From Cohaesibacter haloalkalitolerans (lineage in GTDB: Bacteria > Pseudomonadota > Alphaproteobacteria > Rhizobiales > Cohaesibacteraceae): 64,000 bases of DNA. Position 1 is the stretch's first letter; each line of letters opens with the position of its first letter. The notes beneath the pieces were generated by a model. The model had not been told where the DNA came from and ran no database searches. It worked only from the letters and a program-made list of their open reading frames with translations. Where the stretch lies: assembly GCF_003574655.1 (NCBI RefSeq), contig NZ_QNUM01000008.1, positions 62,001 through 126,000 on the forward strand, written 5' to 3'. The position numbers and the translations under genes are program-made. Of the stretch, positions 44,026 to 62,194 are shown one piece after another.

Positions 44026-44028
44026 TGG

Positions 44029-44460: not shown

Positions 44461-44866
44461 GAATGCCGGCCATATCTCGTCATATGCACCAATCGCTTCC
44501 GTGCTTGAGCTGCCCTATTCCTTCCCGTCAACGGCAATCGCACGCAAGGTTCTCGACGGCGACTTCGGCAAGAGCCTCTCTGACAAGATCGCAGAAGCGT
44601 CGGGCATTCGCATCCTGTCCTACCTGCCTTCGGCATTCCGCAACGTCTCCAGCTCGACCAAGATGATCAAGACCCCGGCCGACATGGTTGGCATGAAAAT
44701 GCGCACGCAGCAAATTCCAATCCACGTCGAAATGGTCAAGTCTCTGGGCGCCTCCCCAACCCCGATCGCCTGGGCAGAACTCTACAGCCCCCTGCAGACT
44801 GGCGTGGTCGACGGACAGGAAACCGCCCCGTATACGATGTTGATGGCCAACCTGCAGGAAGAGCAA
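44459..44866 (+). pseudogene. Fragment of a TRAP solute-binding protein (DctP)
   Basis: The plus-strand frame encodes the middle of a DctP protein: VLELPYSFPS, ARKVLDGDFGKSLSDKIAEA, MVGMKMRTQQIPIHVEMVKS, GASPTPIAWAELYSPLQTGV and VDGQE. There is no signal peptide, and the C-terminal third is gone: similarity stops at LQEEQ. Both ends run straight into other fragments. It is not closely similar to the two intact DctP proteins at 47 and 54 kb. Confidence 0.82.
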
Positions 44867-44870
44867 CATC

Positions 44871-45251
44871 ACTCAGCTTGATGCCGGTGCAGAAGGAACT
44901 CTAGGCATCGTCACCGGAGCGGTGCTCCGCCTCGCCCCTCGCATGACCAGCAAGGCCGTTGCATGGCTTGGCTTCGACGATATCAATTCCGCCCTGCAAG
45001 TGGCCAGTTTGGTTCGATCAACGTTTGGTGCCGATGTTGAAGCGTTGGAACAGGTTGATGATGGCGAGATCAACTGCGTGCTTCAGAACATGACCGAAGT
45101 TCGCATGCCCCTCTCCGCAGTACCGGCCTATTCGCTGATCATCGAGATCGCCACGCCGCGCCCGACGGACAATCTCAATGAGCAATTGGAAGAGGTTCTT
45201 GTTCCTCCGATGGAAGAAGGCCTGATCAGCGACGCAGTGATTGCCCTGTCG
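44871..45251 (+). pseudogene. Fragment of a GlcD-type FAD-linked oxidase
   Basis: A different plus-strand frame from the preceding fragment reads TQLDAGAEGTLGIVTGAVLR, the typical end of the FAD-binding domain of GlcD / D-2-hydroxyglutarate dehydrogenase type enzymes. It continues through the C-terminal cap (DVEALEQVDDGEINCVL, PAYSLIIEIATPRP, EEGLISDAVIALS). Similarity stops at about 45251, 28 bp before the stop of the convergent peptidase gene. About half the protein is missing at the N-terminus, plus a piece at the C-terminus. Confidence 0.78.
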
Positions 45252-45278
45252 ACAAGACGAGGTGGGTTCCCAATGCCC

Positions 45279-46923: not shown

Positions 46924-47946
46924 TCACTTGGAAGGTTTCGCAGTCTGCATCTTGGCCAATGCCCCCGCAGCGTCAAATCCCTGTGCGCTCACTTCTTCGA
47001 CCCATGCCTTTTCCAGCGGAGCCGCAACGGACAGGAGTTGGTCGAGCACCGCGCCATCTGCCGGATAAACATTGATGCCTGCCTTACCGGTCGCTTCAAA
47101 GCCCTCCGCATCTTTCTCGTCCCATGCCTTGCCGACCAGTTCCGAGAAGGCCAGACCGGAAACGGACATGATTGCCTTCTGATCTTCCGGGGAGATGCCG
47201 TCCCATTTGGCCTGATTCATGACAAGGAACCAGGAGGTATTGTAAAGCCCGCCGCTGACGGTCATCACGTCAGTGAGATGCTTTTCGAGCTTGAAGGCCA
47301 GAAGCGAATCCAGCGGCATACAAACACCGTCGATCACGCCGCGCGTCAGCTTTTCATAAACCTCGCCCGAAGACATGAACAGCGTTGTGGCGCCCATACC
47401 CTTCAGCAGGTCGGCAGGGTAGCCCCCCGGTGTCCGCACTTTGAAGCCTGCGAAATCGCTCGCTGCCTTGAAATGCCTGTCCTTGGACAGAAGCGCACCC
47501 GGGCCGTGGGTGAAAAGACCAAGGATATGCGTACCTTCGTGTTCGGCGGCGGCGTCGAGGTCTTCGGTGTATACCGTCCAGAAATTCTTCGACACGCTCA
47601 CGGCATCATTGCCAAGAAAAGAGAACTGACCAACGCGCGACCGCAGGAACCGGCCATCGTTTACGAAGCTATGCAGACCATAGGTGATATCGGCGACGCC
47701 ATCTCGTGCCATGTCGTAATGCGCAGGTGGTGCACCGAGCGGTTTGGCCAGCACGCGGATGGTCACCCGGCCCTCGGTGACCTCTTCGACCTGCTTTGCC
47801 CAAGGCTTGATCGCCCCCTCGACAAGCTGATGGCGCGGCGGTAGCCAGCTTGACAGGACAAGTTCCGTTGCTGCGAAAGCTGGCATCGCTGTCAGCGTAG
47901 CGACAAAACCCACGCCTGCAAGAATAGTGCGTTTAAAGATGTTCAT
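46924..47946 (-). CDS. TRAP transporter solute-binding protein DctP, orphan copy
   Basis: A 340-residue periplasmic binding protein with signal peptide (MNIFKRTILAGVGFVATLTA, cleavage after FAA) and the DctP fold, including the ligand region AGFKVRTPGGYPADLL. The start follows GGGAGGAACAGAC. It is very similar over its whole length to the DctP at 53392-54417 (for example NTSWFLVMNQAKWDGIS in both) but has no membrane-subunit genes beside it. It may share DctQM of the other system and widen its ligand range. A copy of the HpaR-type operator lies 89 bp upstream. Confidence 0.92.
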   Translation of the reverse strand: MNIFKRTILAGVGFVATLTAMPAFAATELVLSSWLPPRHQLVEGAIKPWAKQVEEVTEGRVTIRVLAKPLGAPPAHYDMARDGVADITYGLHSFVNDGRFLRSRVGQFSFLGNDAVSVSKNFWTVYTEDLDAAAEHEGTHILGLFTHGPGALLSKDRHFKAASDFAGFKVRTPGGYPADLLKGMGATTLFMSSGEVYEKLTRGVIDGVCMPLDSLLAFKLEKHLTDVMTVSGGLYNTSWFLVMNQAKWDGISPEDQKAIMSVSGLAFSELVGKAWDEKDAEGFEATGKAGINVYPADGAVLDQLLSVAAPLEKAWVEEVSAQGFDAAGALAKMQTAKPSK

Positions 47947-48034
47947 GTCTGTTCCTCCCAAATTGTCAGTTGGGAAGCCCTGTGTTGACGAGTTTCCTCT
48001 CCTCGCCCACACGCAACATGCTCCCCACGTATTT

Positions 48035-48055
48035 ATACTTAACATGTTAAATTTA
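48035..48055. promoter_or_regulatory. Candidate HpaR operator before the orphan dctP
   Basis: The core TTAACATGTTAA is a perfect 12-bp palindrome. All 21 bases of this site are identical to 61579-61599 beside hpaR. It lies 89 bp before the dctP start. Confidence 0.65.
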
Positions 48056-48274
48056 ATGGAGGCAAGTTCGACCTTCGCGTGAGAGGGTTGGCATTTGGAA
48101 AAGCGATCAAAGCTGCAAAAACACCAAGGAATGAGAGAGAGAAACAGGCGACGCCATCCCTCAACGGCGCGGTCGCCAAGTGTGGGCTCTACTGACGTCT
48201 GTGACGATGAGTTGCGAAACCTCAACGTCCCCTTCAGAGGCCCCTACCCCGGCTGAACAGGTCGAGGCATATCA

Positions 48275-48320: not shown

Positions 48321-50261
48321 TTACTGCCCGCGCTGATCGATCATGAACGCATCAAAGAGCGCGGTGAGTTGCTCATGCGCATCAAGAGGCAAGATGGTCG
48401 CGATATGTTGGTCCGGCCTGACCACCACGACACAGCCCTTGGATCGGTCAATGCCGCGCATCTCGTAGATGTCCTTGTCTGGGTCGGTCTGAAACACTTT
48501 CTCGTAATCCCGCAACCCGTATTTGCCTTTTGCCGGCCACAGGTAATCCTGCAGGTCGTGCATCGCCAAATCCTGTTGCTGGAAGACCGCATAGGTGTCG
48601 ATGGCCGCATCGATATCCGCCCCTTTCGGCGTATATTTCTTCACCGGCGAGTTTTCATCATTGGCAAGAAAGTCAATCAAACGGGCAGAGGCCGAAGTCA
48701 GCTCCAAAGGTGATTGCGTGTCACCAAACACAAACAGACGCCAGCGACCATCCGCCTTCACCAGATGCCCCAGATGCTGGCTTCGGCCATCAGCCACACG
48801 CGTGGCTTCGGCAGAGTGGAACCGCTGACCAATGTGAAAACCGGTTGCCAATTCCTGATTTTCCTGGCCGGTGCAAATATATGACGGGTAGTATTCGATC
48901 GACGTCCCCGCCACGAACCCGCTTTGCCGCTTCATGAAAGCTTCAATCTTGGCGGTATCAATCTTGGCTTGATCGGACGCATCACCGGCAACCGGACGGG
49001 TGGCGACCAGCTTCGACAGCTCACGATCTGCATCGATCAGCTGTTGTGCAACCTTGCGGCGCTCAGTAGCGTAGGTGCTCAAAAGCTTGGGATCACTGCG
49101 ACGTTGCAGAACAGCGGCCAGCTTCCATCCAAGATTGAAGGTGTCCGGCAGCGAGGTGTTCAGCCCCCAACCACCCTTCGGGCTATGGGTGTGGCAGGCA
49201 TCCCCGGCCACAAACGCACGAGGAATGATGTCATCCGAGCTGCCAAGCGGCCGGTTGTCAAAGCGCTCCGCGATGCGCTGCCCCACTTCATAGACAGACC
49301 ACCAAGCCACCTCTTTTACGTCAAGCGTGTACGGACAGAAAACTTTCTGCGCCTTTGCGATCAGGTCTTTCTCCGTCAGTTTGACATCTGACGCACGCTT
49401 GTCTTTATCGAGCAGATCCAGCTCCACATAAAACCTGCAGAGATATCCGCCTTCCCGCGGAATGGTCATTACGGCCCCGTGGTCGTGGGACTGGAGGAAA
49501 CTCTTCACGCGGATATAGGGGAAATCTGTATTGAGAAGAATGTCCATCACCCCCCAGGCCTTGTTGGCAGATTCCCCCTGAAGCGGAATATCCAGAGCCT
49601 TGCGCACGCGGCTCCGCGCCCCATCGCAGCCGACGACATAACGGGCTTTGACGACCTCCTCTGCTCCGTTGCCATCCGCATCCGTCCGCTTGAACCTGGC
49701 CGTGATCGGGTAAGCGTCCAGATCCTGTGTCAGGCTATCGTCAATCTCCAAGGAAACCAGCTCGCGGCTGTAGTGAGGGTGCAGAGCGGTGATCGAATTC
49801 TTCATCCCGTCCAGCAAGAGCTCATGAAGGCGCGCCTGATTGACGATCCCATGGGTAAACTCGGAAAGCCCGGCTCTCGCATCAGGAATTTTATGGGTCA
49901 GTTTGATGTTTTGCGGGTTTTCGGGATCCGGTTCCCAAAATGTGTTTTGCTTCAGCTGATAGGTCTCTTTCACGACCATTTCGCTGCTGTTGAACGCTTC
50001 CATGATTTCCATGGTGCGCGAAGAAATACCATCAGCACGCCCGAACAGAAGCGGACCCGGCTCCTTGTCGACAATACAAGTTGTGATGTCAGCAAACTCG
50101 CTCATCTGACGCGCCATGGTCAAACCGGCCGGACCGGTGCCCACGATCAGGACATCGACTTGTGCTGGCAGGTCTTCAACCGAAGGGTTCGGATATGGTT
50201 TCCTTGCAGCATCCGGAATTTGATAATTGCCAGGTTTGAAGCCATTTAGATGAAATTGCAT
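48321..50261 (-). CDS. FAD-dependent aromatic hydroxylase, MobA / phenol 2-monooxygenase type
   Basis: A 646-residue group A flavoprotein hydroxylase: FAD fingerprint VGTGPAGLTMARQM (near residues 41-46), the DG motif VVGCDGARSRVRKAL, the GD motif GDACHTHSPKGGWGLNTSLP, and a C-terminal thioredoxin-like domain as in phenol hydroxylase and 3-hydroxybenzoate 4-monooxygenase. The closest well-known type by layout is MobA (3-hydroxybenzoate to protocatechuate). In this island, with hpa genes and no hpaBC, it may instead hydroxylate 3-hydroxyphenylacetate at C4 to homoprotocatechuate. It is transcribed alone, behind its own copy of the operator, with GGGAGGAGA before the ATG. Confidence 0.85.
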   Translation of the reverse strand: MQFHLNGFKPGNYQIPDAARKPYPNPSVEDLPAQVDVLIVGTGPAGLTMARQMSEFADITTCIVDKEPGPLLFGRADGISSRTMEIMEAFNSSEMVVKETYQLKQNTFWEPDPENPQNIKLTHKIPDARAGLSEFTHGIVNQARLHELLLDGMKNSITALHPHYSRELVSLEIDDSLTQDLDAYPITARFKRTDADGNGAEEVVKARYVVGCDGARSRVRKALDIPLQGESANKAWGVMDILLNTDFPYIRVKSFLQSHDHGAVMTIPREGGYLCRFYVELDLLDKDKRASDVKLTEKDLIAKAQKVFCPYTLDVKEVAWWSVYEVGQRIAERFDNRPLGSSDDIIPRAFVAGDACHTHSPKGGWGLNTSLPDTFNLGWKLAAVLQRRSDPKLLSTYATERRKVAQQLIDADRELSKLVATRPVAGDASDQAKIDTAKIEAFMKRQSGFVAGTSIEYYPSYICTGQENQELATGFHIGQRFHSAEATRVADGRSQHLGHLVKADGRWRLFVFGDTQSPLELTSASARLIDFLANDENSPVKKYTPKGADIDAAIDTYAVFQQQDLAMHDLQDYLWPAKGKYGLRDYEKVFQTDPDKDIYEMRGIDRSKGCVVVVRPDQHIATILPLDAHEQLTALFDAFMIDQRGQ

Positions 50262-50661: not shown

Positions 50662-51516
50662 TCAGTCGAGCGAAAAGACGACATTGGTTTGGCCGGTGCC
50701 GGATGAAGGGAAATATTCGGTGATCACCTCACCCTTGCCCTTGTAATCCTTCCAGCCAAGCGCACCGAACAGCATGATGGTATCGTGCATATCGCCCTCT
50801 CCATCGCAATATTTGGCATAGTCGGGCAGCATGTCGAGAAAGAGCTCGGTCTCGCCTTTCTGCCACATCTCCAAGACCCGGCGATCCACAACCTCGTTGA
50901 ATTTTGAGGAAATGGTGAAGGTGCCATTGTTCTCGGCATAGATATCGTTGGGCCAGATCTGGTGGCTGAGCGAACCCGAGGCGATCAGGGCGACCTTGGC
51001 GTCGGATTTTTCGATTGCCTTGCGGATGGCAAGCCCCAACCTGCGCGAGCTGTCGAGACTGTGAACGGTGCACATCGCAGCAACGGAGACGACCTTCAGC
51101 GCGGCATCTGCGTTCATGTAGCGCATCGGCACCAGTGTGCCATATTCAAGATCAAGGCTGTCGACCTGATGGCTGAGGGTGTAGACGCCGTCTTCTCGTG
51201 CGGTCTCGGCGATCAGGTCGCCCAGCGCCGCGTTGCCCTCATATTCATAAGGCAGATCCTTGATGAATTGGGGAAACTCATGCGACGTGAACATGCCCTT
51301 GAAGCGATGGTTGGCATTGATGTGGTAGGCCGCATTAACCAGCCAATGCGTGTCGAGCACAACAAAGGTGTCGGCACCGGCTTCCCGGGCGCGGCGACCG
51401 ATTTCGGCGTGGCCATCGATGGCGGCCTGTCGGCAGCCTTTCAGGTTTCCATCCCGTTCGGACATAACCATGGTTGGCACATGTGTGACCTTGGCGGCCA
51501 GTACGATTTCACCCAT
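50662..51516 (-). CDS. hpaD: 3,4-dihydroxyphenylacetate 2,3-dioxygenase, LigB (type III) family
   Basis: The 284 residues match the E. coli HpaD/HpcB family over the full length. Matching stretches are AAKVTHVPTMVMSE, CRQAAIDGHAEIGRR, DTHWLVNAAYHIN, LEYGTLVPMRYMN, ASGSLSHQIW and TELFPSSGTGQ-like ITEYFPSSGTGQTN. The His residues that bind iron are in place (THVP and DTHW, with a catalytic His in SLSH). The enzyme opens homoprotocatechuate next to the hydroxyls. It lies 63 bp after dctM, in the transporter operon rather than with the other hpa genes, where a second, unrelated dioxygenase is found. Confidence 0.93.
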   Translation of the reverse strand: MGEIVLAAKVTHVPTMVMSERDGNLKGCRQAAIDGHAEIGRRAREAGADTFVVLDTHWLVNAAYHINANHRFKGMFTSHEFPQFIKDLPYEYEGNAALGDLIAETAREDGVYTLSHQVDSLDLEYGTLVPMRYMNADAALKVVSVAAMCTVHSLDSSRRLGLAIRKAIEKSDAKVALIASGSLSHQIWPNDIYAENNGTFTISSKFNEVVDRRVLEMWQKGETELFLDMLPDYAKYCDGEGDMHDTIMLFGALGWKDYKGKGEVITEYFPSSGTGQTNVVFSLD

Positions 51517-51579
51517 AGCTTTTCCTCCCTCTATGGTGAATGGACGCGTTTCCGTTGCCTCCCGGCTGGTGGCCTGCTG

Positions 51580-52893
51580 TCAGCCGACCACCAGCATGAG
51601 GGAAAGGAACGGGAAAAAGATAAGCAGCAACAGCCGCAGGATATCGGCAATCCAGAAAGGCAGGATGCCTTTGAAGATTGTCTTGAGCGCAACGTCGGGC
51701 AAGGTCGCCTTGAGCACGAAGACATTCATGCCGATCGGTGGTGTGATGAGAGAAATCTCGGTCACGACAACCACGATGATACCGAACCAGATGAGGGTGT
51801 TTTCCGTGTCCGAAAGCAGCTCCAGGCCGAAGTCGAGCTGATACATCAGCGGATAGAAGATGGGAACGGTCAAGAGGATCATCGACAGGCTCTCCAGCAC
51901 GGTGCCCAGCAGCAGATAGACGATGGTGATGACCGCCATGATGACCCAGGCGTTGACCTCAAGAGAACCCACATAGGAGGCCAGTTCATCGGGCAGGCCA
52001 GCAAGGTTGATGTAGTTCGAGAAGACTTCGGCACCGATGATCACGAGAAAGATCATCGCGGTGCTTTCGGCCGTGTCCATCAGGGCGCGCCAGACTTCCG
52101 GCACTTTGGCGTGACCGGTGACAACAACCATGACAAGCGCCATGCCTGCGCCCATGCCAGCGGCTTCGATCGGCGTGAAGAAGCCGCCATAGATGCCGAT
52201 CATGATGAAGGCGAACAGGGCAACCGACAGGATCACACCATAGAGGCCTTCGACCGGATGATCATCCACATCATAGGATTCGGGAGCCAGCGAAGGGTTC
52301 AGTTTGACAGCCGCCCATACCGCGATGACATAGCCCAGCAATCCGATGAGGCCGGGAACGATCCCCGCCAGAAACAGCAATCCGATGTCACTTTCTGTCA
52401 AAATGCCATAGATGATCAGGATGACCGACGGCGGAATAAGAATACCGAGTGTCCCACCTGCGGCAATGGCTCCGGAAGACAGGCTGTCGGAGTACCCAAA
52501 CTTGCGCAGGGACGGCATGGCGACCTTCGACATCGTTGCCGCTGTTGCCAGCGACGAGCCGGATACCGCAGAGAAGCCGCCGCATGAAAGAACTGCGGCC
52601 ATGGCCAAGCCACCCGGCAGACGACGCACAAGGCGTTGTGTCGCCGAGAACAGGCCGGAGGCAACCCCGGAATAGGCGAGCAGGTTGCCCATGAAAATGA
52701 ACAGTGGAATGACCGACAGCGAATAGGAGAAGACGGAGTCAAAGGCAGTCGTCGACAGCATCACGAGAGAAGCTTCAACCCCGCGCAACAACGCAAATCC
52801 GATTGTGCCGACGACAATCATCGCAATCGCGATGGGCACGCGAAACATCGCCAGCGCAAGCAACAGAGCCGTGGCAATCAAAGGTTCGGTCAT
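51580..52893 (-). CDS. dctM: TRAP transporter large membrane subunit DctM
   Basis: A 437-residue membrane protein with about 12 hydrophobic segments and the DctM phrases MGNLLAYSGVASGLFSAT, GSSLATAATMSKVAMPSL and GTLGILIPPSVILIIYG. It drives sodium-coupled uptake with DctQ and DctP. The start codon comes one base after the dctQ stop; a further upstream Met in the frame is not needed. Confidence 0.95.
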   Translation of the reverse strand: MTEPLIATALLLALAMFRVPIAIAMIVVGTIGFALLRGVEASLVMLSTTAFDSVFSYSLSVIPLFIFMGNLLAYSGVASGLFSATQRLVRRLPGGLAMAAVLSCGGFSAVSGSSLATAATMSKVAMPSLRKFGYSDSLSSGAIAAGGTLGILIPPSVILIIYGILTESDIGLLFLAGIVPGLIGLLGYVIAVWAAVKLNPSLAPESYDVDDHPVEGLYGVILSVALFAFIMIGIYGGFFTPIEAAGMGAGMALVMVVVTGHAKVPEVWRALMDTAESTAMIFLVIIGAEVFSNYINLAGLPDELASYVGSLEVNAWVIMAVITIVYLLLGTVLESLSMILLTVPIFYPLMYQLDFGLELLSDTENTLIWFGIIVVVVTEISLITPPIGMNVFVLKATLPDVALKTIFKGILPFWIADILRLLLLIFFPFLSLMLVVG

Positions 52894-52894
52894 G

Positions 52895-53395
52895 TCAGAA
52901 CTCCAGACGTTTGCGCAATGGGACCAGCACAATCAGGCCGCTGACGAGATAGGTGATTGCTCCAAGGGCCGCAGCGGGCCATACCGGCAGCGACAGGTCA
53001 TTGGTAACCGCGCCGTCTTCTATCAGCTTCAGCCCGTGTGCTCCGACATTCCAGCTGAGAACAAAGAACACCACTGCCGTTACCGCGGCACCGAATTTTC
53101 CGATCCGCAGATAGGTCTCGGAACTCCAGAAATGGCTCAGCAGGTCCACTTCCACGTGGCTATCCTTGAAGGTCGTCATCGGCAAGGCGGTGAGCACCAG
53201 ATCGGCGAGCAGAATCTGTGTCAACTCGAAGGCTCCAGGCAGGGGCGCCTCAAAGAAATAGCGCCCGATGACGTCAATCACCGTCACTGCAACCAGCATC
53301 AGCAGAAAGGCGGCCGCCATCGCGGGCAGAACGCGGATGATGATGAAGCGAAGCCCTTTGAGGGGCTTCGGGTGTTTTTTATGTGCGGCCATCAT
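52895..53395 (-). CDS. dctQ: TRAP transporter small membrane subunit DctQ
   Basis: 166 residues with four membrane helices and the DctQ marks VTVIDVIGRYFFEAPLPGAF and DSHVEVDLLSHF. It overlaps the dctP stop by four bases and is followed at once by dctM. The organic acid carried is inferred from the neighbouring hpa genes. Confidence 0.94.
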   Translation of the reverse strand: MMAAHKKHPKPLKGLRFIIIRVLPAMAAAFLLMLVAVTVIDVIGRYFFEAPLPGAFELTQILLADLVLTALPMTTFKDSHVEVDLLSHFWSSETYLRIGKFGAAVTAVVFFVLSWNVGAHGLKLIEDGAVTNDLSLPVWPAAALGAITYLVSGLIVLVPLRKRLEF

Positions 53396-54417
53396 TTGTT
53401 CGGCTTTGCTGTTTGCATGCTGGCAAGCGCTCCGGCGGCATCATAGCCCTGAGCAGCGACAGCATCGACCCAGACCTTCTCTATACCCGCCGACACATCC
53501 ATGATTTCAGCCAGAACGGCGTCGTCAGCCTCATAGACATCGATACCGGCTTTCCTGGTGGTTGCCAGCCCGTCGGTATCGGCGGCGTCCCAGGCCTTGC
53601 CAGCCAGTTCAGCAAAGGCTTCACCGGAGACAGACATAATCGCCTTCTGGTCGTCTTCCGAGATCCCGTCCCACTTGGCCTGATTCATCACCAGAAACCA
53701 AGATGTGTTGTAGAGCCCGCCGGGCACGGTCATCACATCGGTAATATGCTTGTCCAGTTTGAAGGCACGGACGGAATCCATGGCCATGCAGATGCCGTCG
53801 ATCACACCACGGGTCAGCTTTTCATAGACTTCGCCCGATGACATGAACAGGGTGGTTGCCCCCACGCCGGACATCAGATCCGCCGGATAGCCGCCCGGTG
53901 TTCTGAGCTTGAAGCCCTGAAACTTGTCCGGGCTGTCAAAGTGATAGCCCTTGGAGAGCAGCACGCCCGGGCCATGGGTGAAGAGCCCCAGAAGCTTGGT
54001 GCCTTCATGTTCCTTGGCTGCCTCCAGTTGACCACCGTAGACACTCCAGAAATTCTTCGAGATCTCGACCGCGCTTTTCCCGAGGAAGGAAAACTGGCCA
54101 ACACGGGAACGCAGGAAGCGGTCATCCTTGGTGAAGCTGTGCAGGCCATAGGTGATGTCGGCGACACCGTCCTTGGCCATGTCGAAATGTGCAGGGGGCG
54201 CACCGAGCGGCTTTGCCAGCACCCGAACCGTTACGCGCCCTTGGGTAACCTCACCCACCTGTTTGGCCCATGGCTTGATGGCGTCCATGACCAGAGGGTG
54301 CCGTGGCGGCAGCCAGCTGGACAGAACCAGTTCAGTGGCTGCGCTTGCGGCTCCACTCCCAAGCATGGAGACCGCGAGCATGGCACTCGCAAGAAATGCG
54401 CGTCTGGAAATGATCAT
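53392..54417 (-). CDS. dctP: TRAP transporter solute-binding protein DctP
   Basis: A 341-residue periplasmic binding protein with an Arg-Arg signal peptide (MIISRRAFLASAMLAVSMLG) and the DctP fold. The start follows GGGAGGAACATCC; 49 further open codons upstream are disregarded. It heads the dctPQM-hpaD unit and is a near-duplicate of the orphan DctP at 46924-47946. Likely ligand: a hydroxylated phenylacetate or related aromatic acid, by context only. Confidence 0.94.
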   Translation of the reverse strand: MIISRRAFLASAMLAVSMLGSGAASAATELVLSSWLPPRHPLVMDAIKPWAKQVGEVTQGRVTVRVLAKPLGAPPAHFDMAKDGVADITYGLHSFTKDDRFLRSRVGQFSFLGKSAVEISKNFWSVYGGQLEAAKEHEGTKLLGLFTHGPGVLLSKGYHFDSPDKFQGFKLRTPGGYPADLMSGVGATTLFMSSGEVYEKLTRGVIDGICMAMDSVRAFKLDKHITDVMTVPGGLYNTSWFLVMNQAKWDGISEDDQKAIMSVSGEAFAELAGKAWDAADTDGLATTRKAGIDVYEADDAVLAEIMDVSAGIEKVWVDAVAAQGYDAAGALASMQTAKPNK

Positions 54418-54521
54418 GGATGTTCCTCCCCCCATTGACCTGTCTGTGACCTGTTTGTGATCCAACCGGTCTGATCTACGGCCTCTCCTCCGGACACCGT
54501 CGCTCACCGATCGCGAATTAT

Positions 54522-54533
54522 TTAACTTGTTAA
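54522..54533. promoter_or_regulatory. Candidate HpaR operator before dctPQM-hpaD
   Basis: TTAACTTGTTAA differs at one central base from the perfect TTAACATGTTAA of the sites at 48 and 61 kb. It lies about 105 bp before the dctP start and after the hpaI stop. Confidence 0.5.
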
Positions 54534-54582
54534 CAATAATAGCAGAGTTCACTCTGCTTTCCATTGCCTACATTTGTCGAAT

Positions 54583-55344
54583 TCAGACAAAAGTCTTGCG
54601 CAAGGCCAACAGCCCGCCGCGCAAAACGCCCACGTCGGACCCGATGGCCAGAAACTCGACCCCGAGTTCCTTGTAGCCTTGGGCAAGCGTCTGGTCTGAC
54701 GTAAGAATTCCCGCTGCCTTGCCGGCGGAACGGATCTTCTTCAAGGTGTCGTTGACAATCGCCTGAACTTCCGGAGCACCCGGGCGCCCCAGATATCCAA
54801 GGTCAGCCGCCAGATCGGCGGGACCGACAAACACACCGTCGACGCCATCCACGGCGAGGATATCATCAAGCGCGTCGAGCCCGGCCTTGCTCTCCACCTG
54901 CAGCAAGACACAGATTTCATCGTTGGCTGTCTGCAAATAGTCGGAAATCCCGTTGTAGGACGAGGCCCGGGCGAGGGCCGCGCCGACGCCACGCACACCG
55001 TGCGGCGGGTATTTGGCCGACCGGACGACTTCTGCTGCCTGCTTTCCGCTTTCAATCATGGGAACGAGCAAGGTCTGGGCTCCGATGTCCAGCATCTGCT
55101 TGATCTCGGCCCGATTGTCATCGCGCGTCCGGACCACTGCCTGGGTCTGCGCTCCGATGGCGCGGAGTTGCGACAGGGTATCACGCAGGCCGTTCGGGCC
55201 ATGCTCGCCATCAATCAGCAACCAGTCAAACCCGGTTCCTGCGCATAGTTCCGCAACAGACGGGTCGCCCAAGCCGAGCCAGAGGCCGATTTGGGTCTCC
55301 CCCTTCTTGAGGCGCATCTTGAAGCTATTCATTTGGGCTGGCAT
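54583..55344 (-). CDS. hpaI: 4-hydroxy-2-oxoheptanedioate aldolase
   Basis: HpaI splits 4-hydroxy-2-oxoheptanedioate into pyruvate and succinate semialdehyde, the last ring-derived step. The class II HpcH/HpaI fold is clear: LLIDGEHGPNGLRD (catalytic His), VRTRDDN, LLVPMIESGKQA, LLQVESKAGLDALDDI and VDGVFVGPADLAADLGYLG. With the start at MPAQMNSFKM, nine bases after GGAGA, it has 253 residues, near the E. coli length (262). hpaH ends ten bases upstream. Confidence 0.93.
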   Translation of the reverse strand: MPAQMNSFKMRLKKGETQIGLWLGLGDPSVAELCAGTGFDWLLIDGEHGPNGLRDTLSQLRAIGAQTQAVVRTRDDNRAEIKQMLDIGAQTLLVPMIESGKQAAEVVRSAKYPPHGVRGVGAALARASSYNGISDYLQTANDEICVLLQVESKAGLDALDDILAVDGVDGVFVGPADLAADLGYLGRPGAPEVQAIVNDTLKKIRSAGKAAGILTSDQTLAQGYKELGVEFLAIGSDVGVLRGGLLALRKTFV

Positions 55345-55354
55345 GGGGTCTCCT

Positions 55355-56155
55355 TCACTCAAAGTTCACTGTGACCTGGCCGAAGCTGCCATAATCAGCG
55401 TGGATATATGTGCCGGATGGACACTCGATGGGCGCAATGAACGACCCGGCCAGAACGACCTGCCCCGCCTCGATGCGCTGCCCATATTGCCCCATCCGCT
55501 CCGACAGCCAGACGATGCCCATGACCGGATCATTCAGCACCGCAGCGCCAAGGCCCGTGGCGATGACTTCGTCATTCCTGGTCAGGATCGCTCCCACCCA
55601 CCTGAGGTCAAACACCTCTGGCGCATGGCGCTGTTTTCCCAAAACGATGCCACCATTGGCAGCATTGTCGGAGACCGTGTCGAAGATCTTTCTGGTCTGG
55701 CCGGTGCTGGCGTCCTGCCGTGCGATCCGGGTGTCGAGAATTTCAAGGGCAGGTGCAACATACTCTGTCGCCGCCAGAACATCCTCGCGGCTGACCTTGC
55801 CTTCCAGCGGTGCCTTCATGATGAAGGCGATTTCCGCCTCGATGCGCGGCTGGATGAAGCGTGTCGCCGGAATGGCGGCCCCGTCTGCAAAGTCCATGTC
55901 GTCGTAAAGGACACCGCTGTCCGGAGTGGAAATCCCGAGGGCATCCTGCATGACCTTGGATGTCAGACCGATTTTCCAGCCGATGATGGATCTGCCCTGA
56001 GCCATCTTGTGCGGCATCTGCGCGGCCTGAATCGCATAGGCATCATCCAGTGTGATGTCCGGGTGACGCACAGAAAGCAGACCGATCTGTTGCCGTGTTT
56101 GCTCCGCCTTCAGCAAGTCTGCTGCTGCAGTTTGGATCTCGTTTGTACTCAGCAT
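55355..56155 (-). CDS. hpaH: 2-oxo-hept-4-ene-1,7-dioate hydratase
   Basis: HpaH adds water to 2-oxohept-4-ene-1,7-dioate. The 266 residues are of the hydratase/decarboxylase family, with GWKIGLTSKVMQDALGI, RIEAEIAFIMKAPL and NDPVMGIVWLSERMG close to E. coli HpaH and MhpD. It overlaps the upstream hpaG gene by seven bases, showing tight coupling. Confidence 0.93.
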   Translation of the reverse strand: MLSTNEIQTAAADLLKAEQTRQQIGLLSVRHPDITLDDAYAIQAAQMPHKMAQGRSIIGWKIGLTSKVMQDALGISTPDSGVLYDDMDFADGAAIPATRFIQPRIEAEIAFIMKAPLEGKVSREDVLAATEYVAPALEILDTRIARQDASTGQTRKIFDTVSDNAANGGIVLGKQRHAPEVFDLRWVGAILTRNDEVIATGLGAAVLNDPVMGIVWLSERMGQYGQRIEAGQVVLAGSFIAPIECPSGTYIHADYGSFGQVTVNFE

Positions 56156-57027
56156 TGTTCATCCTCCACGCCATTGCGCAGCAGGCCAATGCCTTCCGCT
56201 TCCACCTCGACCACGTCCCCCGGCCGCAACCAGATTGGCGGGTCAAAGCGTGCTCCGGCTCCCGTCGGCGTGCCGCAGACGATGACATCGCCGGGAACCA
56301 GCGTACAGAAGGTCGATACATAGGCGATGATGTAGCGGAAGCTGAACATCATGCGGGACGTGCGGTCCTGCTGACGCACCTCGCCATTGACCCGCGTCAC
56401 CAGTTCGATGTCATCGAGCTGGTCTGCCGTACGGAACGGAACGAGCCACGGGCCAATGGCGCCGGACTGGTCCCAGTTCTTGCCCTGGGTGACATTGAAT
56501 TTGGCATGGCGCACCCAGTCGCGGATTGTCCCCTCGTTGCACAGGGTCAGCGCGGCGATGTGATCATAGGCATCCGCCTCGGCGATACGGCGTCCACCCT
56601 TGCCAATGACAATGGTGACTTCGCCTTCATAGTCGAGCTGCGGGCTTTCCGGCGGGCGCACAAGATTGCCGCCATGGCCGGTGAAGCTGCGCGGAAAGCG
56701 GATGAACATGGACGGTTTCGACGGTGCGGCTTGGCCATCCTTGTATTCGGCATTGCGGTCAGGAAAATTGACACCGATGCAGATGAGCTTTTCCGGCTTG
56801 TCGATGGGGATGAGAAAGTCGACATCCTCTTCGCGATAGGTCGCAGAACGCCCCTCGGCGGCCTTGATGATCTCTTCTAGAGCGCCTGCCTCGATCACCT
56901 GTTTGAGGCCTGAAAAGCGGGCGCCGAACTCGGGTGTCAAATCGACGATGCCGTTGTCGGTCACAAGGCCGTAGCGATCGGCTCCATTGGCGCGGAAGGC
57001 CGCAACGCGAGCGGGAATGGATTTCAT
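56149..57027 (-). CDS. hpaG: Fumarylacetoacetate hydrolase family protein, HpaG-type decarboxylase
   Basis: A 292-residue FAH-fold protein with metal ligands in the DYEGEVTIVIGKGGR segment and GDVIVCGTPTGAGARFDPP. By position between hpaH and the dehydrogenase genes it should decarboxylate 5-oxopent-3-ene-1,2,5-tricarboxylate. In E. coli HpaG has two FAH domains in tandem, for isomerisation and decarboxylation; only one is present here, and no second FAH gene was seen in the window. Isomerisation is covered by HpaF or happens in this one domain. Confidence 0.85.
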   Translation of the reverse strand: MKSIPARVAAFRANGADRYGLVTDNGIVDLTPEFGARFSGLKQVIEAGALEEIIKAAEGRSATYREEDVDFLIPIDKPEKLICIGVNFPDRNAEYKDGQAAPSKPSMFIRFPRSFTGHGGNLVRPPESPQLDYEGEVTIVIGKGGRRIAEADAYDHIAALTLCNEGTIRDWVRHAKFNVTQGKNWDQSGAIGPWLVPFRTADQLDDIELVTRVNGEVRQQDRTSRMMFSFRYIIAYVSTFCTLVPGDVIVCGTPTGAGARFDPPIWLRPGDVVEVEAEGIGLLRNGVEDEQC

Positions 57028-57038
57028 GGTCAGCCTCC

Positions 57039-58487
57039 TCAGGCTATTCCGCCGAAGCAGAGATATTTGATTTCAGTGAATTCCTCGATGCCATAGCGGG
57101 AGCCTTCCCGGCCGAGGCCGGAGGATTTGATGCCGCCAAACGGGGCTTCTGCCGTCGAGATCAGGCCGGTGTTGATGCCGACCATGCCGTATTCAAGCTG
57201 TTCCCCGACCTTCCAGGCGCGCGCCAGATCGCGGGTATAGAAATAGGACGCCAGACCGAATTCGGTATCGTTGGACATAGCAACGACGTCTGCGTCTTCT
57301 TCGAAACGGAACAATGGAGCGACCGGGCCGAAGGTTTCCTCGGATGCGATGGCCATATCCTGTGTGACACCGGTCAAGACTGTCGGCTCAAAGAACGTCC
57401 CACCCAGCGCATGGACAGAGCCGCCGCACATGACGCTTGCCCCTTTGCTTGTGGCATCGGCGATGTGTTCCTCGACCTTGGCAATGGCGTTGTCGTCAAT
57501 CAGCGGCCCGAAGACTATGTCTTGCTCAAGGCCGTTGCCGACCTTCAGGGTCGAGAGCTTTGCTCCAAGCTTTTGCGCGAAGGCATCATAGACGCCGGAC
57601 TGGACATAGATCCGGTTGGCGCAGACGCAGGTTTGACCGTTGTTGCGGAATTTGGAGATGATCGCTCCTTCGACAGCAGCATCCAGATCCGCATCATCAA
57701 ACACGATGAACGGCGCATTGCCCCCAAGCTCCAACGCCAGTTTCTTGACCGTTGGTGCGCACTGTCGCATCAGCTCCACCCCGACCTGCGTCGAGCCGGT
57801 GAAGGTCAGCTTGCGAACCGTTTCACTGCCGGTCATCACCGCCCCAATGGCCCGCGCAGGCCCGGTAATGACCGACAGCAAACCGTCAGGAAGCCCCGCA
57901 CGCTGCGCCAGAACGGCCAGCGCAATGGCGGAAAAGGGCGTCTGCTCGGCAGGCTTGAGCACCATGGCACATCCGACAGCCAGTGCAGGGCCCGCCTTGC
58001 GGGTGATCATGGCATTGGGGAAGTTCCACGGCGTAATCGCCGCAACGACCCCAATCGGCTGCTTGATGACGACAATCCGCTTGTCAGCTGCATGACCGGG
58101 GATCACATCGCCATAGACCCTGCGGGCTTCCTCGGCAAACCATTCGATGAAAGATGCACCATAGAGGATCTCGCCCTTCGCTTCCGCCAGTGGTTTGCCC
58201 TGTTCCAGCGTCAGGATCAGAGCCAGATCGTCCACATTCTCGATGATCAGATCGTACCAGCGCCGCAGGATGACAGACCGTTCCTTGGCCGTTCTGGCTG
58301 CCCATTGCTTCTGCGCATCATCTGCCGCCTTGATGGCAGCTTCCGTCTCAGTGGCACCAAGGCTTGGCACATGACCAATGGTCTCGCCCGTCGCCGGGTT
58401 GGTGACTTTGATCCCCGTCTCATCGGCTGGGATCCACTGGCTCCCCACGAGCGCTGCCTGTTTGAGCAATTCCGGATCTTTGAGCAT
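57039..58487 (-). CDS. gabD: NAD(P)-dependent succinate-semialdehyde dehydrogenase
   Basis: A 482-residue aldehyde dehydrogenase with catalytic Cys in NGQTCVCANRIYVQ and Glu in LALELGGNAPF, and the GabD phrases GVVAAITPWNFPNAMITRK and PFGGIKSSGLGREGSRYGIE. The start at MLKDPELLKQ fits the family; 16 further codons are open. Its job is to oxidise the succinate semialdehyde released by HpaI to succinate, which completes the route to central metabolism. Confidence 0.9.
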   Translation of the reverse strand: MLKDPELLKQAALVGSQWIPADETGIKVTNPATGETIGHVPSLGATETEAAIKAADDAQKQWAARTAKERSVILRRWYDLIIENVDDLALILTLEQGKPLAEAKGEILYGASFIEWFAEEARRVYGDVIPGHAADKRIVVIKQPIGVVAAITPWNFPNAMITRKAGPALAVGCAMVLKPAEQTPFSAIALAVLAQRAGLPDGLLSVITGPARAIGAVMTGSETVRKLTFTGSTQVGVELMRQCAPTVKKLALELGGNAPFIVFDDADLDAAVEGAIISKFRNNGQTCVCANRIYVQSGVYDAFAQKLGAKLSTLKVGNGLEQDIVFGPLIDDNAIAKVEEHIADATSKGASVMCGGSVHALGGTFFEPTVLTGVTQDMAIASEETFGPVAPLFRFEEDADVVAMSNDTEFGLASYFYTRDLARAWKVGEQLEYGMVGINTGLISTAEAPFGGIKSSGLGREGSRYGIEEFTEIKYLCFGGIA

Positions 58488-58549
58488 CAGACTTTCCTTG
58501 TTTCGAACTGCCCGGGAAGGGCCAATGTGGCCCATCCCGAACCATCAAC

Positions 58550-59530
58550 TCACGGGGCGATGATCGGGCTTGCGGCCAGATCGCTCTGTTTCGGCTCAAG
58601 GCCATCGAACAGCGAGCCATGCTCGAACCAGGAGCGTGGGGCCGGTGCGCCCCAGAGGGTCTGGCGCTGCGGATCCTTCAGATCCCACTTGATGGCCTCA
58701 AGGTCTGGATCAACCGTCTGATAGTCGGAGCAATAGATCTCGATGCGGTGCCCGTCCGGATCAAGGATGTAGAGGAAGAAGGCATTGGAAATGCCGTGTC
58801 GGCCCGGTCCGCGCTCGATGTTGCCGACATATCCGGTGGTCGCCATCAGATCGCACAGATCGATGATGTTGAGCGGCGTCGGAACCCAGAATGCCGTATG
58901 GTGCAGGCGCGGCCCCAGACCGTTGGTGAAGGCGATGTCATGGACGCCGCCCTTGCGGTGCGTCCAGGCAGCCCACAGCTTGCCGCTTTCTTCGTCCTCG
59001 GTATATTCGGTCACCCTGAAGCCGAGTTCATTGTAGAATGCCACGCTGTCATCGACCGAAGAGGAGAAGCAGTTGAAGTGGTCGATGCGCAGCGGCTTCA
59101 CACCCTTGTAGAGCTCGTATTTCTGGTGGATGGGGGCCAGACGGTCCATCTTGAAATAGAACTCGATCGGCATGCCGAAATTGTCGACGGTTGCCAGTGT
59201 GCGTCCCTGATAGGCCCGCTCGACCCAGGCGACCGGATGGCCCTTCTGTTTGAACCAGGCGAATGCCTTGTCGAGTTCTTCCTCGGCAAACACCTTGAAC
59301 GACAGGCTCTGAACCTCACTCTTGTCCGCTTTGCTCAGGACCAGGCAGTGATGTCCTCGCTCTTCAAGCGCGCGCAGATAGACGGCCTCATCCGTTTCAT
59401 CGGTGACCTGCAGGCCAAGAATGTCGACATAGAAACGGCGACTGGCGGCCAGATCCTTGACGCCGAACACAACATGGCTAAGGCGCAGAATATTGAAGGG
59501 CGGGTATAGATTGGGTGCTGGAATTGGCAT
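58550..59530 (-). CDS. Homoprotocatechuate 2,3-dioxygenase, VOC (type I) family
   Basis: A 326-residue two-module extradiol dioxygenase of the vicinal-oxygen-chelate fold, like the Brevibacterium and Arthrobacter homoprotocatechuate enzymes. The iron triad is visible: His 151 (RIDHFNCF), His 210 or 211 (RLHHTAFWV) and Glu 264 (DPDGHRIEIY). The start at MPIPAPNLYP follows GGGAGAGAG; upstream open codons are not family-like. It lies between gabD and hpaE in the main hpa operon and does the same reaction as the unrelated HpaD 7 kb away. Confidence 0.92.
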   Translation of the reverse strand: MPIPAPNLYPPFNILRLSHVVFGVKDLAASRRFYVDILGLQVTDETDEAVYLRALEERGHHCLVLSKADKSEVQSLSFKVFAEEELDKAFAWFKQKGHPVAWVERAYQGRTLATVDNFGMPIEFYFKMDRLAPIHQKYELYKGVKPLRIDHFNCFSSSVDDSVAFYNELGFRVTEYTEDEESGKLWAAWTHRKGGVHDIAFTNGLGPRLHHTAFWVPTPLNIIDLCDLMATTGYVGNIERGPGRHGISNAFFLYILDPDGHRIEIYCSDYQTVDPDLEAIKWDLKDPQRQTLWGAPAPRSWFEHGSLFDGLEPKQSDLAASPIIAP

Positions 59531-59653: not shown

Positions 59654-61162
59654 TCAGCCCAGCCGAGGCACTTTGTGATGCTGCCTTGGGAAGCAAACAT
59701 TGACAGTTTCCATGTAGAAATCGAACGACCAGTCGCCGCCATCACGGCCGATGCCCGAGGCCTTGACGCCCCCGAACGGGGATGGCAGATGGCGTACGTT
59801 TTCGGAGTTCACCCACATCATGCCGGCTTCGAGATTGTCCGTCATGCGCATGGCGCGGTCGAGATCGCTTGTCCAGAGATAGGCGGCGAGGCCATACTGG
59901 ACGTCGTTGGCAAGCGCCAAGGCCTCGTCTTCGTCCTTGAAGGGAATGGCCGTCAGAACGGGACCGAAGATCTCTTCCTGAGCAATGGCCATGCCGTTGT
60001 TGGCACCGGTGAACAGGGTTGGACTGACATAGCAACCAGCGTCTCCGACCTTCTGGCCACCTGCTGCGATGGTTGCTCCCTCCTCGCGTGCCTTGGCGAA
60101 ATAGGACAGCACCTTTTCCTCATGCACCGGATGGATGAGCGGGCCAACGACCGTTTCAGGGTCGAGCGGATGACCGACCTTGATGCTCTTGGCAACTTCG
60201 GCCACCTTGGCGGTGAACTCTTCATAGATGCTTTCCTGCACCAACAGACGCGAGGACGAGGTGCAGCGCTCACCGTTCAGCGAATAGATCATGAAGGTTG
60301 CAGCGTTCACGGCACGATCAAGATCCGCATCGTCAAACACGATCACCGGGTTTTTGCCGCCAAGTTCGAAATGGAACCGCTTCAAGGTATCGGCCCCCTG
60401 ACGCATGATGTGCGACCCGGTGCGGCTTTCACCAACGAAGGCAATGGCCTTGATGTCGGGATGCTCGGTAAGCGCCTTGCCGGCACTGTCGCCAAACCCG
60501 TTGACGAGGTTGAGCACGCCTTTTGGCAGACCTGCCTCTTCCGCGATCTCGACAAGCAGCTTGGCGGTCATGGGCGAGAATTCGGCGGGCTTATGCACCA
60601 CGGTGCAGCCTGCAGCCAGAGCCGGGGCGATCTTCCAGGTTGACAGCATGAACGGCGTGTTCCATGGCGTGATGACACCGATCGGCCCGATCGGGCGGCG
60701 GGACGTTACGTTCATCTGGTTTGGATTGCGCAGCGCCAGGCCATCTTCTGCAGAAGGAGCCTGATCGGCAAAGAAGCGGAAATTCGCAGCGCCACGCACA
60801 GCAGCCTTCGACATGAACCGAAGCGCCTGCCCGGTATCCATGCACTCGGTAAAAGCAACTTCCTCGGCTCTGGCCTCAATGGCTTCCGCTACCTTGATCA
60901 GAATGGCCTTGCGGTCCTTGCCCGGCATCTTCGACCAGCTGGCAAAGGCGGCCTTGGCGGCTGCAACGGCAGCGTCAATGTCGGATGCATCCCCCTTGGC
61001 AACCTGCGCCAACACGGATCCGTCAACGGGCGAGATGGTTTCGAAGGTCGCACCGGAGTTCGCTGGCACACTGGCCCCGGCGATGTGGTTCATCACGCCG
61101 GTTTCGCGGAATTTGGCAAGATAGCCTTGGGCTTTGGCTAGGTTTTCATCAAGAGCGCTCAT
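59654..61162 (-). CDS. hpaE: 5-carboxymethyl-2-hydroxymuconate semialdehyde dehydrogenase
   Basis: HpaE oxidises the ring-fission aldehyde to 5-carboxymethyl-2-hydroxymuconate. The 502-residue aldehyde dehydrogenase has the HpaE phrases GPIGVITPWNTPFMLSTWK, VHKPAEFSPMTAKLL, catalytic Glu in FELGGKNPVIVF and Cys in LNGERCTSSSRLLV, and ends GRDGGDWSFDFYMETVNVC. The start is at MSALDENLAK; the frame is open 12 codons further. hpaF ends ten bases upstream. Confidence 0.94.
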   Translation of the reverse strand: MSALDENLAKAQGYLAKFRETGVMNHIAGASVPANSGATFETISPVDGSVLAQVAKGDASDIDAAVAAAKAAFASWSKMPGKDRKAILIKVAEAIEARAEEVAFTECMDTGQALRFMSKAAVRGAANFRFFADQAPSAEDGLALRNPNQMNVTSRRPIGPIGVITPWNTPFMLSTWKIAPALAAGCTVVHKPAEFSPMTAKLLVEIAEEAGLPKGVLNLVNGFGDSAGKALTEHPDIKAIAFVGESRTGSHIMRQGADTLKRFHFELGGKNPVIVFDDADLDRAVNAATFMIYSLNGERCTSSSRLLVQESIYEEFTAKVAEVAKSIKVGHPLDPETVVGPLIHPVHEEKVLSYFAKAREEGATIAAGGQKVGDAGCYVSPTLFTGANNGMAIAQEEIFGPVLTAIPFKDEDEALALANDVQYGLAAYLWTSDLDRAMRMTDNLEAGMMWVNSENVRHLPSPFGGVKASGIGRDGGDWSFDFYMETVNVCFPRQHHKVPRLG

Positions 61163-61172
61163 GGATCGTCCT

Positions 61173-61562
61173 TTAATTCTGGCCTGATAGGCGGGCATGA
61201 ATAGGTGTGTCTTTCCAGCTCAGGTCTGGGTTGATGACACGGATTTCGAGGGAAAGCGCAAAGTGCGTCGTGGCCAAGGGCTGTGCGAGAGCTTCTCTGA
61301 CCGCCGCAAAAATCTCATCCCCTGCGGACTTGAGCTGTGCGGTCGAGCGTCCAGCGCCAACCGACAAGGTCAACGCTGCAAAATCATTCTGTGGCAGTCC
61401 GTCAGCGACAATGGCATAGTCGGCCTTATAGGCGCGAACGCGTATCCCTGCCTTGGGAAAGATCCCGGTTTTTAGCATCGCCTGATAGGCAGCCTGACAT
61501 AGCTCCGCCATGTCAGCACGGCTCTCCAGCCCCGCTGAATATTCGATTTTTAGGTGTGGCAC
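61173..61562 (-). CDS. hpaF: 5-carboxymethyl-2-hydroxymuconate delta-isomerase
   Basis: A 129-residue tautomerase-fold isomerase whose N-terminal proline (exposed after Met removal) is the catalytic base. A GTG start followed directly by PHLKIEYSAGLE gives exactly that proline, and it is preceded by GGGAGGAAATC, so I reject the ATGs upstream that the frame also allows. It is the first gene of the hpaFE operon, starting 17 bases after the operator site. Confidence 0.92.
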   Translation of the reverse strand: MPHLKIEYSAGLESRADMAELCQAAYQAMLKTGIFPKAGIRVRAYKADYAIVADGLPQNDFAALTLSVGAGRSTAQLKSAGDEIFAAVREALAQPLATTHFALSLEIRVINPDLSWKDTPIHARLSGQN

Positions 61563-61578
61563 GATTTCCTCCCAGATA

Positions 61579-61599
61579 ATACTTAACATGTTAAATTTA
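61579..61599. promoter_or_regulatory. Candidate HpaR operator between hpaF and hpaR
   Basis: A 12-bp palindrome TTAACATGTTAA inside 21 bases that are identical to 48035-48055. It lies 17 bp before the hpaF start and 131 bp before hpaR, so it can serve the catabolic operon and autoregulation. Confidence 0.68.
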
Positions 61600-61729
61600 T
61601 CTGTTATTGTCAATCTGACCACTATTCAATTTTAGTCTAGTGTTACAAACTCGCGGAATTTGCGATTGTGCATCGATTTCTGAATGTTTCTCGACGACTG
61701 AAATGATTACGCCCAAGGAGTTTAGGGAG

Positions 61730-62194
61730 ATGACAAAACAACCGTCCCGAGCAGGTCTGGAACTTAGCCAGACTCAAAGAACGTTGCCAATCGCCCTATT
61801 GCGCGCGCGGGAAGCCGTGATGGACTACTTCAGGCCATTGCTGGCGGAACATGATGTCACCGAACAACAATGGCGGGTCATGCGCGTGCTGGATGAAGTC
61901 GGCACGGTCGACGCGAGCTTTCTGGCGCGACAGGCCTGTATTCTGGCTCCATCGCTTACCCGCATCATGAGAACCCTGGAAGCGCGCGGCTTTGTGGAAG
62001 TGAGCAGGGACACGGCAGATGGCAGACGCACATTGGTGTGTTTGAGTGAGGAAGGACGCCAATTCATCCGGAAGCTGGCGCCGGCAAGCGCCAGGATTTA
62101 TCAAGACATCGAAAGCAAGATTGGATGCGAACGAATTAGTACGCTGCTCGATGAGATCGAAATCCTGCTCGAATCCCTCAGTTCGGAATCATGA
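61730..62194 (+). CDS. hpaR: MarR family repressor HpaR
   Basis: HpaR represses homoprotocatechuate operons and is released by the aromatic acid. The 154-residue product, started at MTKQPSRAGLELSQTQRTLP, has the HpaR-specific TLPIALLRAREAVMDYFRPL opening and a MarR winged helix (TEQQWRVMRVLDEVGTVDAS, SLTRIMRTLEARGFVEVSRD). AAGGAG and GGGAG lie before this ATG; the frame is open 30 codons further, with an alternative Met at 61703. It is divergent from the hpa operon and faces the operator. Confidence 0.9.
   Translation: MTKQPSRAGLELSQTQRTLPIALLRAREAVMDYFRPLLAEHDVTEQQWRVMRVLDEVGTVDASFLARQACILAPSLTRIMRTLEARGFVEVSRDTADGRRTLVCLSEEGRQFIRKLAPASARIYQDIESKIGCERISTLLDEIEILLESLSSES

Follow-up and report, generated by a model that had tools for sequence, protein, structure and literature searches.

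The hpa pathway of Escherichia coli, for which the available text of one report describes hpaGEDFHI (PMC3053370), is among the described systems closest to the locus considered here, a hpa cluster with two unrelated ring-cleaving enzymes. The cluster lies in a 64,000-nucleotide stretch of the genome of the marine bacterium Cohaesibacter haloalkalitolerans (contig NZ_QNUM01000008.1, positions 62,001 to 126,000), hereafter the window, in whose numbering all coordinates are given. Like E. coli, the window encodes homologues of HpaE, HpaF, HpaG, HpaH, HpaI and HpaR together with a LigB-type (type II) 3,4-dihydroxyphenylacetate (DHPA) 2,3-dioxygenase, HpaD, to which annotated E. coli copies are 57% identical. 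Unlike E. coli, for which one ring-cleaving enzyme is described, the window adds a VOC-type (type I) HpaD and holds TRAP transporter genes inside the series, and no HpaB was found in the genome. The LigB-type enzyme shares its equivalog family and fold with the DHPA dioxygenases (DHPAO) of Acinetobacter baumannii (8iq8, 55% identical) and Pseudomonas aeruginosa (plasmid copy, 55.6%). The VOC-type enzyme shares its equivalog family and ligands with homoprotocatechuate 2,3-dioxygenase (HPCD) of Brevibacterium fuscum and MndD of Arthrobacter, although the equivalent of R293 in those enzymes is Gln in all 56 aligned rows of the window set; both bacteria are known for the VOC-type enzyme alone. Both types do occur in one hpa operon in Phaeobacter porticola pP97_b and Ruegeria sp. 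SCSIO 43209, where LigB comes first with VOC adjacent, whereas in the window LigB comes last, 7 kb from VOC and after the TRAP genes. The genome of Pseudomonas sp. TDA1 also encodes a LigB-type HpaD, within an hpa cluster, together with an extradiol dioxygenase of the VOC type, but according to the available text of that report the VOC gene lies elsewhere and is proposed to act on 4-aminocatechol rather than as a second HpaD (PMC7118221). No description of two HpaD types in one operon was found among the listed titles and abstract openings of open-licence PubMed Central articles, which does not prove that the arrangement is unpublished.

The enzymes and the pathway are known and no new enzyme type is involved; what differs is that this version of the pathway keeps two ring-cleaving enzymes in a conserved cluster. 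We read the window as one hpa series with two non-homologous DHPA isoenzymes, both acting on the same substrate in this bacterium and both apparently kept because their working ranges differ; from the comparisons below, we give this reading a probability of about 0.5. The two genes lie on the minus strand. The LigB-type open reading frame (ORF; 50662-51516, 284 amino acids), which closes the conserved hpa series, belongs to PF02900 and scores 472.2 bits against TIGR02298 (curated cut-off 315.95), and the VOC-type protein (58550-59530, 326 amino acids) scores 420.9 bits against TIGR02295 (cut-off 321.4). Both models are curated NCBI equivalogs named DHPA 2,3-dioxygenase, a single protein in the whole genome passes the cut-off of each, and the two proteins have no Pfam family in common. 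By sequence, the nearest solved relatives are 8iq8 for LigB (342 bits; Foldseek TM 0.90) and the HPCD structure 1f1x for VOC (281 bits). Both enzymes are accordingly predicted to cleave DHPA at the 2,3 bond.

The active sites are also preserved. His12, His57, Glu240, Tyr125 and His185 of LigB are invariant across 104 aligned rows, the window copy being counted twice. The first three match His12, His57 and Glu239 as numbered in P. aeruginosa DHPAO, a 2-His-1-Glu metal site with a second-sphere Tyr and His in the available text of its report (PMC5291488). At nine positions, window-type LigB has one fixed residue and the 50 other LigB rows compared have another. The VOC-type protein, numbered by alignment with solved HPCD sequences, keeps the equivalents of H155, H214, E267, H200, Y257, N157, W192, R243 and H248 in 56 of 56 rows; in HPCD the first three are the metal ligands and the others second-sphere residues. 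The set behind these rows dropped VOC matches below 250 bits and LigB matches below 180 bits to the window proteins and kept identical segments once. Two departures from HPCD, V250 to Ile and R293 to Gln (residue 290 of the window VOC-type protein), are likewise present in every row, with Arg at the latter position in the solved HPCD sequences and Gln across the whole VOC set aligned. R293 is presumably a carboxylate contact in HPCD, and it is doubtful whether it defines the family. The sequence-only reading had named a LigB-type HpaD and a VOC-type dioxygenase with their metal ligands in place, and both assignments stand.

The main reason for regarding the two enzymes as isofunctional is that either alone, or both, occupy the same slot in otherwise similar operons. 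Annotated plasmid operons run hpaE, slot, fumarylacetoacetate-hydrolase-family gene and hpaH, in some cases with a gabD-like or decarboxylase gene after the slot. At the locus, the slot holds VOC alone in Aminobacter and Agrobacterium plasmids, LigB alone in plasmids of Ruegeria pomeroyi and R. conchae, and LigB followed by VOC in Phaeobacter porticola and Ruegeria sp. It thus appears that one and the same lower pathway can work with either enzyme. Both genes are named hpaD in both annotated tandem operons, so an annotation can easily hide whether one is present or has been lost.

A family sample centred on a Celeribacter genome (G424), picked as its centre because it carries the pair, extends this pattern. 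LigB is present in 45 of the 394 genomes, and VOC lies in the same stretch at 28 of the 45 loci. Among these 28, 26 have no other sought gene between LigB and VOC and 25 have a spacing of 11-135 bp, distances being taken from BLAST-extended segments. VOC accompanies LigB at 28 of 39 loci with a LigB identity of at least 64% and at none of the six with one of at most 50%. On the LigB tree of these loci, the presence of VOC in the stretch switches at least 13 times, five of these switches being forced by starred branches. Closely related clusters with one enzyme, the other or both make the question of why two analogous enzymes are kept directly testable in cultivable bacteria. A DOPA-decarboxylase-like gene was also observed in hpa operons at 14 of the 45 LigB loci (e.g., L165 12319-13716; 7xin, 359 bits), which suggests that the catechol may also come from tyrosine or DOPA.

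LigB is further tied to DHPA because it follows the gene for HpaB, or HpaB and HpaC, in three loci: directly after HpaB-HpaC in Martelella L075, with one large ORF between in L085, and after the HpaB gene in L080 (HpaB confirmed by PF11794, HpaC by eye). In the two Martelella loci L075 and L085, a gene that appears by eye to be of the AraC type stands divergent from HpaB-HpaC, and this group with LigB is separate from the operon for the lower pathway.

When a single step can be catalysed by unrelated enzymes, different species usually have one or the other; in this case many genomes retain both in one gene cluster. The earlier statement that a pathway normally has just one of them fits the gammaproteobacterial and betaproteobacterial genomes searched (L091-L134), where VOC passed its cut-off in 0 of 15, and fails for this alphaproteobacterial group, since the pair occurs in Hyphomicrobiales and Rhodobacterales, in several families. 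Within a Cohaesibacter sample of 18 genomes, LigB is over its cut-off in nine and VOC in seven, and all seven VOC genomes have both. Across the order (397 genomes sampled), LigB is over its cut-off in 22 and VOC present in 52, and both occur in 15, where 2.9 would be expected (Fisher p 7e-10), a count that includes the LigB genes of f36, a different, stand-alone LigB type. By genus, VOC is present in 6 of 9 LigB genera and in 18 of 141 genera (p 1e-4). The samples overlap slightly: G330 is the same genome as G397, and G412, G424 and G515 each stand in two sets. As a separate observation, three loci (L153, L155 and L156, of genomes G253, G387 and G143) carry a LigB (54-55% identical) that stands alone, no hpa genes having been found around it; each of these genomes has VOC over the cut-off elsewhere, in G253 inside a hpa cluster (L154).

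Named relatives show how closely VOC follows LigB of the window type. The closest is Cohaesibacter marisflavi (L062), whose LigB is 97% identical, and VOC lies in the same stretch as LigB at 18 of 80 named LigB loci. A genome search for VOC, covering 44 of the 80, found it over the cut-off in 22 of 23 genomes with LigB at least 72% identical to the window copy and in 0 of 21 with other LigB, the 72% line having been drawn after the result was seen and L084 (69%, without VOC) falling in the same tree clade. On the LigB tree, which left out the second window copy, the fragment L024 and the identical L007, and in which 35 rows carry no VOC label as their genomes lay outside the search, the window clade has 35 rows with VOC in 32. 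VOC is missing from G239, of the same genus, and from L064 and L084, both metagenome-assembled genomes. Neighbouring genes were called by codon score, by which some genes visible by tblastn were still missed. The sequence-only reading was to be counted as refuted if most relatives had both genes as a fixed pair and one of the two had a different role already known; the pair is indeed fixed in many relatives, and no known different role was found.

In the window, the gene order is hpaF, hpaE, VOC, SSADH (succinate-semialdehyde dehydrogenase), hpaG, hpaH, hpaI, dctP1, dctQ, dctM and LigB, with the gene for a MarR-type regulator, HpaR, divergent on the plus strand (61640-62194; TIGR02337, 154 bits against a cut-off of 121; the ORF begins at GTG and the true start may be downstream). 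HpaE, HpaF, HpaG, HpaH, HpaI and HpaR are all present by best family, with HpaE, HpaH and HpaR over their family cut-offs and HpaF, HpaG and HpaI below theirs. On the minus strand follow HpaF, a 5-carboxymethyl-2-hydroxymuconate isomerase-like protein assigned partly by position (61173-61622; NF011605, 74 bits, cut-off 215); HpaE (59654-61198; TIGR02299, 771 bits, cut-off 638); SSADH (57039-58535; TIGR01780, 724 bits, cut-off 646); an HpaG-like decarboxylase/isomerase of the fumarylacetoacetate hydrolase family, again partly by position (56149-57027; TIGR02303, 171 bits, cut-off 276); HpaH, 2-oxo-hept-4-ene-1,7-dioate hydratase (55355-56155; TIGR02312, 367 bits, cut-off 351.5); and an HpaI-like 4-hydroxy-2-oxoheptanedioate aldolase (54583-55362; TIGR02311, 347 bits, cut-off 369). 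The TRAP genes encode the solute-binding protein DctP1 (53392-54564; PF03480; 4p56, 230 bits), the small permease DctQ (52895-53395; PF04290) and the large permease DctM (51580-52932; PF06808; TIGR00786, 273 bits, cut-off 268).

The genes from hpaF to LigB are co-directional and spaced -20 to 162 bp apart, several start codons having been chosen by us, and the hpa series is probably one operon. In named relatives without the TRAP genes (e.g., L067, L068 and L076), LigB stands directly after hpaI or hpaH. Beyond LigB, a 400-bp gap precedes a MobA-like flavoprotein monooxygenase (48321-50261; NF006144, 849 bits, cut-off 560; 2dkh, 661 bits), and a further 353 bp separates it from a second TRAP solute-binding protein, DctP2 (46924-48225; PF03480), 72% identical to DctP1; all genes from hpaF through DctP2 are on one strand. 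The earlier division of the two dioxygenases into two units, one with the transporter and one with the lower pathway, is therefore not apparent in the gene layout, and survives as a possible internal start. One promoter-like and one terminator-like minus-strand match fall in the hpaI-dctP1 gap (54536-54563), in scans whose totals are close to those of shuffled sequence: 11 promoter-like matches (6.0 +/- 2.6 in shuffles) and 17 terminator-like matches (14.0 +/- 3.9).

As isoenzymes, LigB and VOC would both open DHPA (homoprotocatechuate) at the 2,3 bond to give 5-carboxymethyl-2-hydroxymuconate semialdehyde, which HpaE, HpaF, HpaG, HpaH, HpaI and SSADH would carry to pyruvate and succinate, the established course of the lower hpa pathway. 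The preferred reason for keeping both is that one would be a fast enzyme for high flux and the other a metal-flexible enzyme for low iron or low substrate. In the available text of a kinetic report, the P. aeruginosa LigB-type enzyme has a kcat of 62 per s and a Km of 58-67 uM, works with Fe(II) only, does not accept Mn or Co and loses activity through H2O2, while the VOC-type enzyme of B. fuscum has a Km of 15 uM and a kcat of 10 per s with Fe and accepts Mn, and the Mn enzyme of Arthrobacter has a Km of 7 uM and a kcat of 23 per s (PMC5291488). A split in metal need, which the sequence-only reading had raised along with splits in substrate and oxygen need, or in kinetics is compatible with these published properties of the two types, the contrast between them not being uniform, and a complementary working range is plausible by analogy. 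A narrower and more doubtful version is a cofactor switch in marine and coastal alphaproteobacteria, in which the iron-only, fast LigB would serve when iron is replete and the Mn-capable VOC when it is scarce. If true, the use of aromatic carbon would continue under iron scarcity, and the switch would be a catabolic counterpart of iron-sparing enzyme swaps.

Several observations weigh against two isoenzymes in one series. The kinetic contrast is blurred by a Km of 16 uM for the LigB-type enzyme of E. coli C, by the report of the Klebsiella pneumoniae LigB-type enzyme as a Mg enzyme, and by the kcat/Km of the Arthrobacter VOC-type enzyme, which exceeds that of P. aeruginosa LigB (all in the available text of PMC5291488). 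The LigB-only loci of the Celeribacter family and the VOC-only plasmids were scored at the locus itself. LigB lies apart from hpa genes in L064, L069, L079 and L157, and a promoter before dctP1, hence a separate TRAP-LigB transcript, is possible. The window clade seldom lacks VOC, whereas the tandem clade does so more often, and this difference could reflect specialisation. LigB residues 186-197, which follow the catalytic His, differ from those of enterobacterial LigB, and pairwise distances of LigB correlate with those of other operon genes at 0.45-0.78, against 0.60-0.85 for those genes among themselves.

The main rival, a serious one that we hold to be possible, is a division of substrates: VOC would open DHPA and LigB a related catechol with another side chain, or the reverse, with the products entering the same lower pathway. 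Candidates are 3,4-dihydroxymandelate, 3,4-dihydroxyphenylpropionate, L-DOPA and dopamine. It is still serious because of G239. In that genome (L144 7898-13514), the VOC slot between hpaE and hpaG is taken by a divergent LigB, 48% identical to the window copy, no VOC passes the cut-off, and a window-type LigB (79% identical) is kept at the end; such a cluster is inexplicable by complementarity of fold or metal and fits two distinct roles better. The location of LigB at the end of the window series, behind the TRAP genes and before the MobA-like flavoprotein, also suits separate substrates, as does the loop after the catalytic His, and the decarboxylase-like genes of the Celeribacter family mean that side-chain variants may be available. 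On the other hand, operons with either enzyme alone have the same neighbours, the checked VOC active-site residues are identical in all 56 rows, and the P. aeruginosa LigB-type enzyme strongly prefers DHPA, with 2.6% activity on 3,4-dihydroxyphenylpropionate in the available text of its report (PMC5291488).

Simple dosage is unlikely. Here, a second enzyme would raise ring-cleaving capacity and keep the reactive catechol from building up, consistent with the spacing of at most 135 bp between LigB and VOC in 25 of 28 paired family loci and with the Martelella LigB beside HpaBC, the catechol-forming step. Gene duplication would serve that end, yet two unrelated folds are paired at 28 of 45 loci.

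The presence of two enzymes appears to be long established, not an accident of recent date. Compared with six genus relatives, LigB has a ratio of nonsynonymous to synonymous substitution (dN/dS) of 0.014-0.027, among the lowest in the series together with HpaE, and VOC one of 0.029-0.042; both genes are under strong purifying selection. Distances of LigB and VOC correlate at 0.70 over 24 paired loci, and LigB is somewhat less congruent with the operon than the other genes are. A recent horizontal merger of two clusters, with one enzyme redundant and being lost, as the sequence-only reading had offered, would fit that lower congruence and the gene remnants adjoining at 43.4-45.4 kb, but is made highly improbable by the conservation of the pair across families, the even base composition of the region and dN/dS values far below 1 for both genes.

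The upstream step has no obvious enzyme of the usual kind in this genome. HpaB (4-hydroxyphenylacetate 3-monooxygenase, PF11794), an upstream enzyme that is not part of every hpa meta-cleavage operon, had no match here; it passed its cut-off in 0 of 9 Cohaesibacter genomes searched and in 17 of all 41 genomes searched, of which G330 and G397 are the same genome. The MobA-like flavoprotein may be the catechol supplier in Cohaesibacter, a candidacy suggested by its distribution: it is present in exactly the seven pair-bearing genomes of the genus and in none of the 13 others (20 genomes searched), although in G302 it lies elsewhere on the chromosome and in G256 one TGA falls within the match. 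It would hydroxylate a hydroxyphenylacetate, taken up by the TRAP system, to DHPA. Consistent with such uptake, solved TRAP solute-binding relatives of DctP1 bind aromatic acids, including 4-hydroxyphenylacetate, and the sequence search and the Foldseek list agree on this; the predicted DctP1 model is poor (mean pLDDT 47). The ligand of 4p56 is presumably mandelate.

The closest solved relative of the flavoprotein is the 3-hydroxybenzoate hydroxylase 2dkh (661 bits), in alignment with which it keeps D75, H135, K247 and Y271. This match, together with the failure to find an intradiol dioxygenase in the genome and the YgiD/DODA-like appearance by eye of its only other PF02900 gene (L163 1324-2205), would suit LigB as a protocatechuate 2,3-dioxygenase acting on the product of 3-hydroxybenzoate hydroxylation, an idea rendered scarcely credible by the occurrence of a close flavoprotein homologue in L062 alone among the 80 named LigB loci (weaker matches of 24-45% are present in L071, L084, L172, L191 and L196) and by the 0.002% activity of the P. 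aeruginosa relative on protocatechuate in the available text of PMC5291488.

Elsewhere in the window, a scan of two ORFs against defence families gave no match. The segment at 43384-45437 is a string of gene remnants that looks like a decayed cluster: it contains one ORF without a family match, an ORF resembling a flavin mononucleotide-dependent alpha-hydroxy-acid dehydrogenase, matching in two pieces, a short ORF that is cupin-like by eye, and a DctP fragment covering profile positions 63-196.

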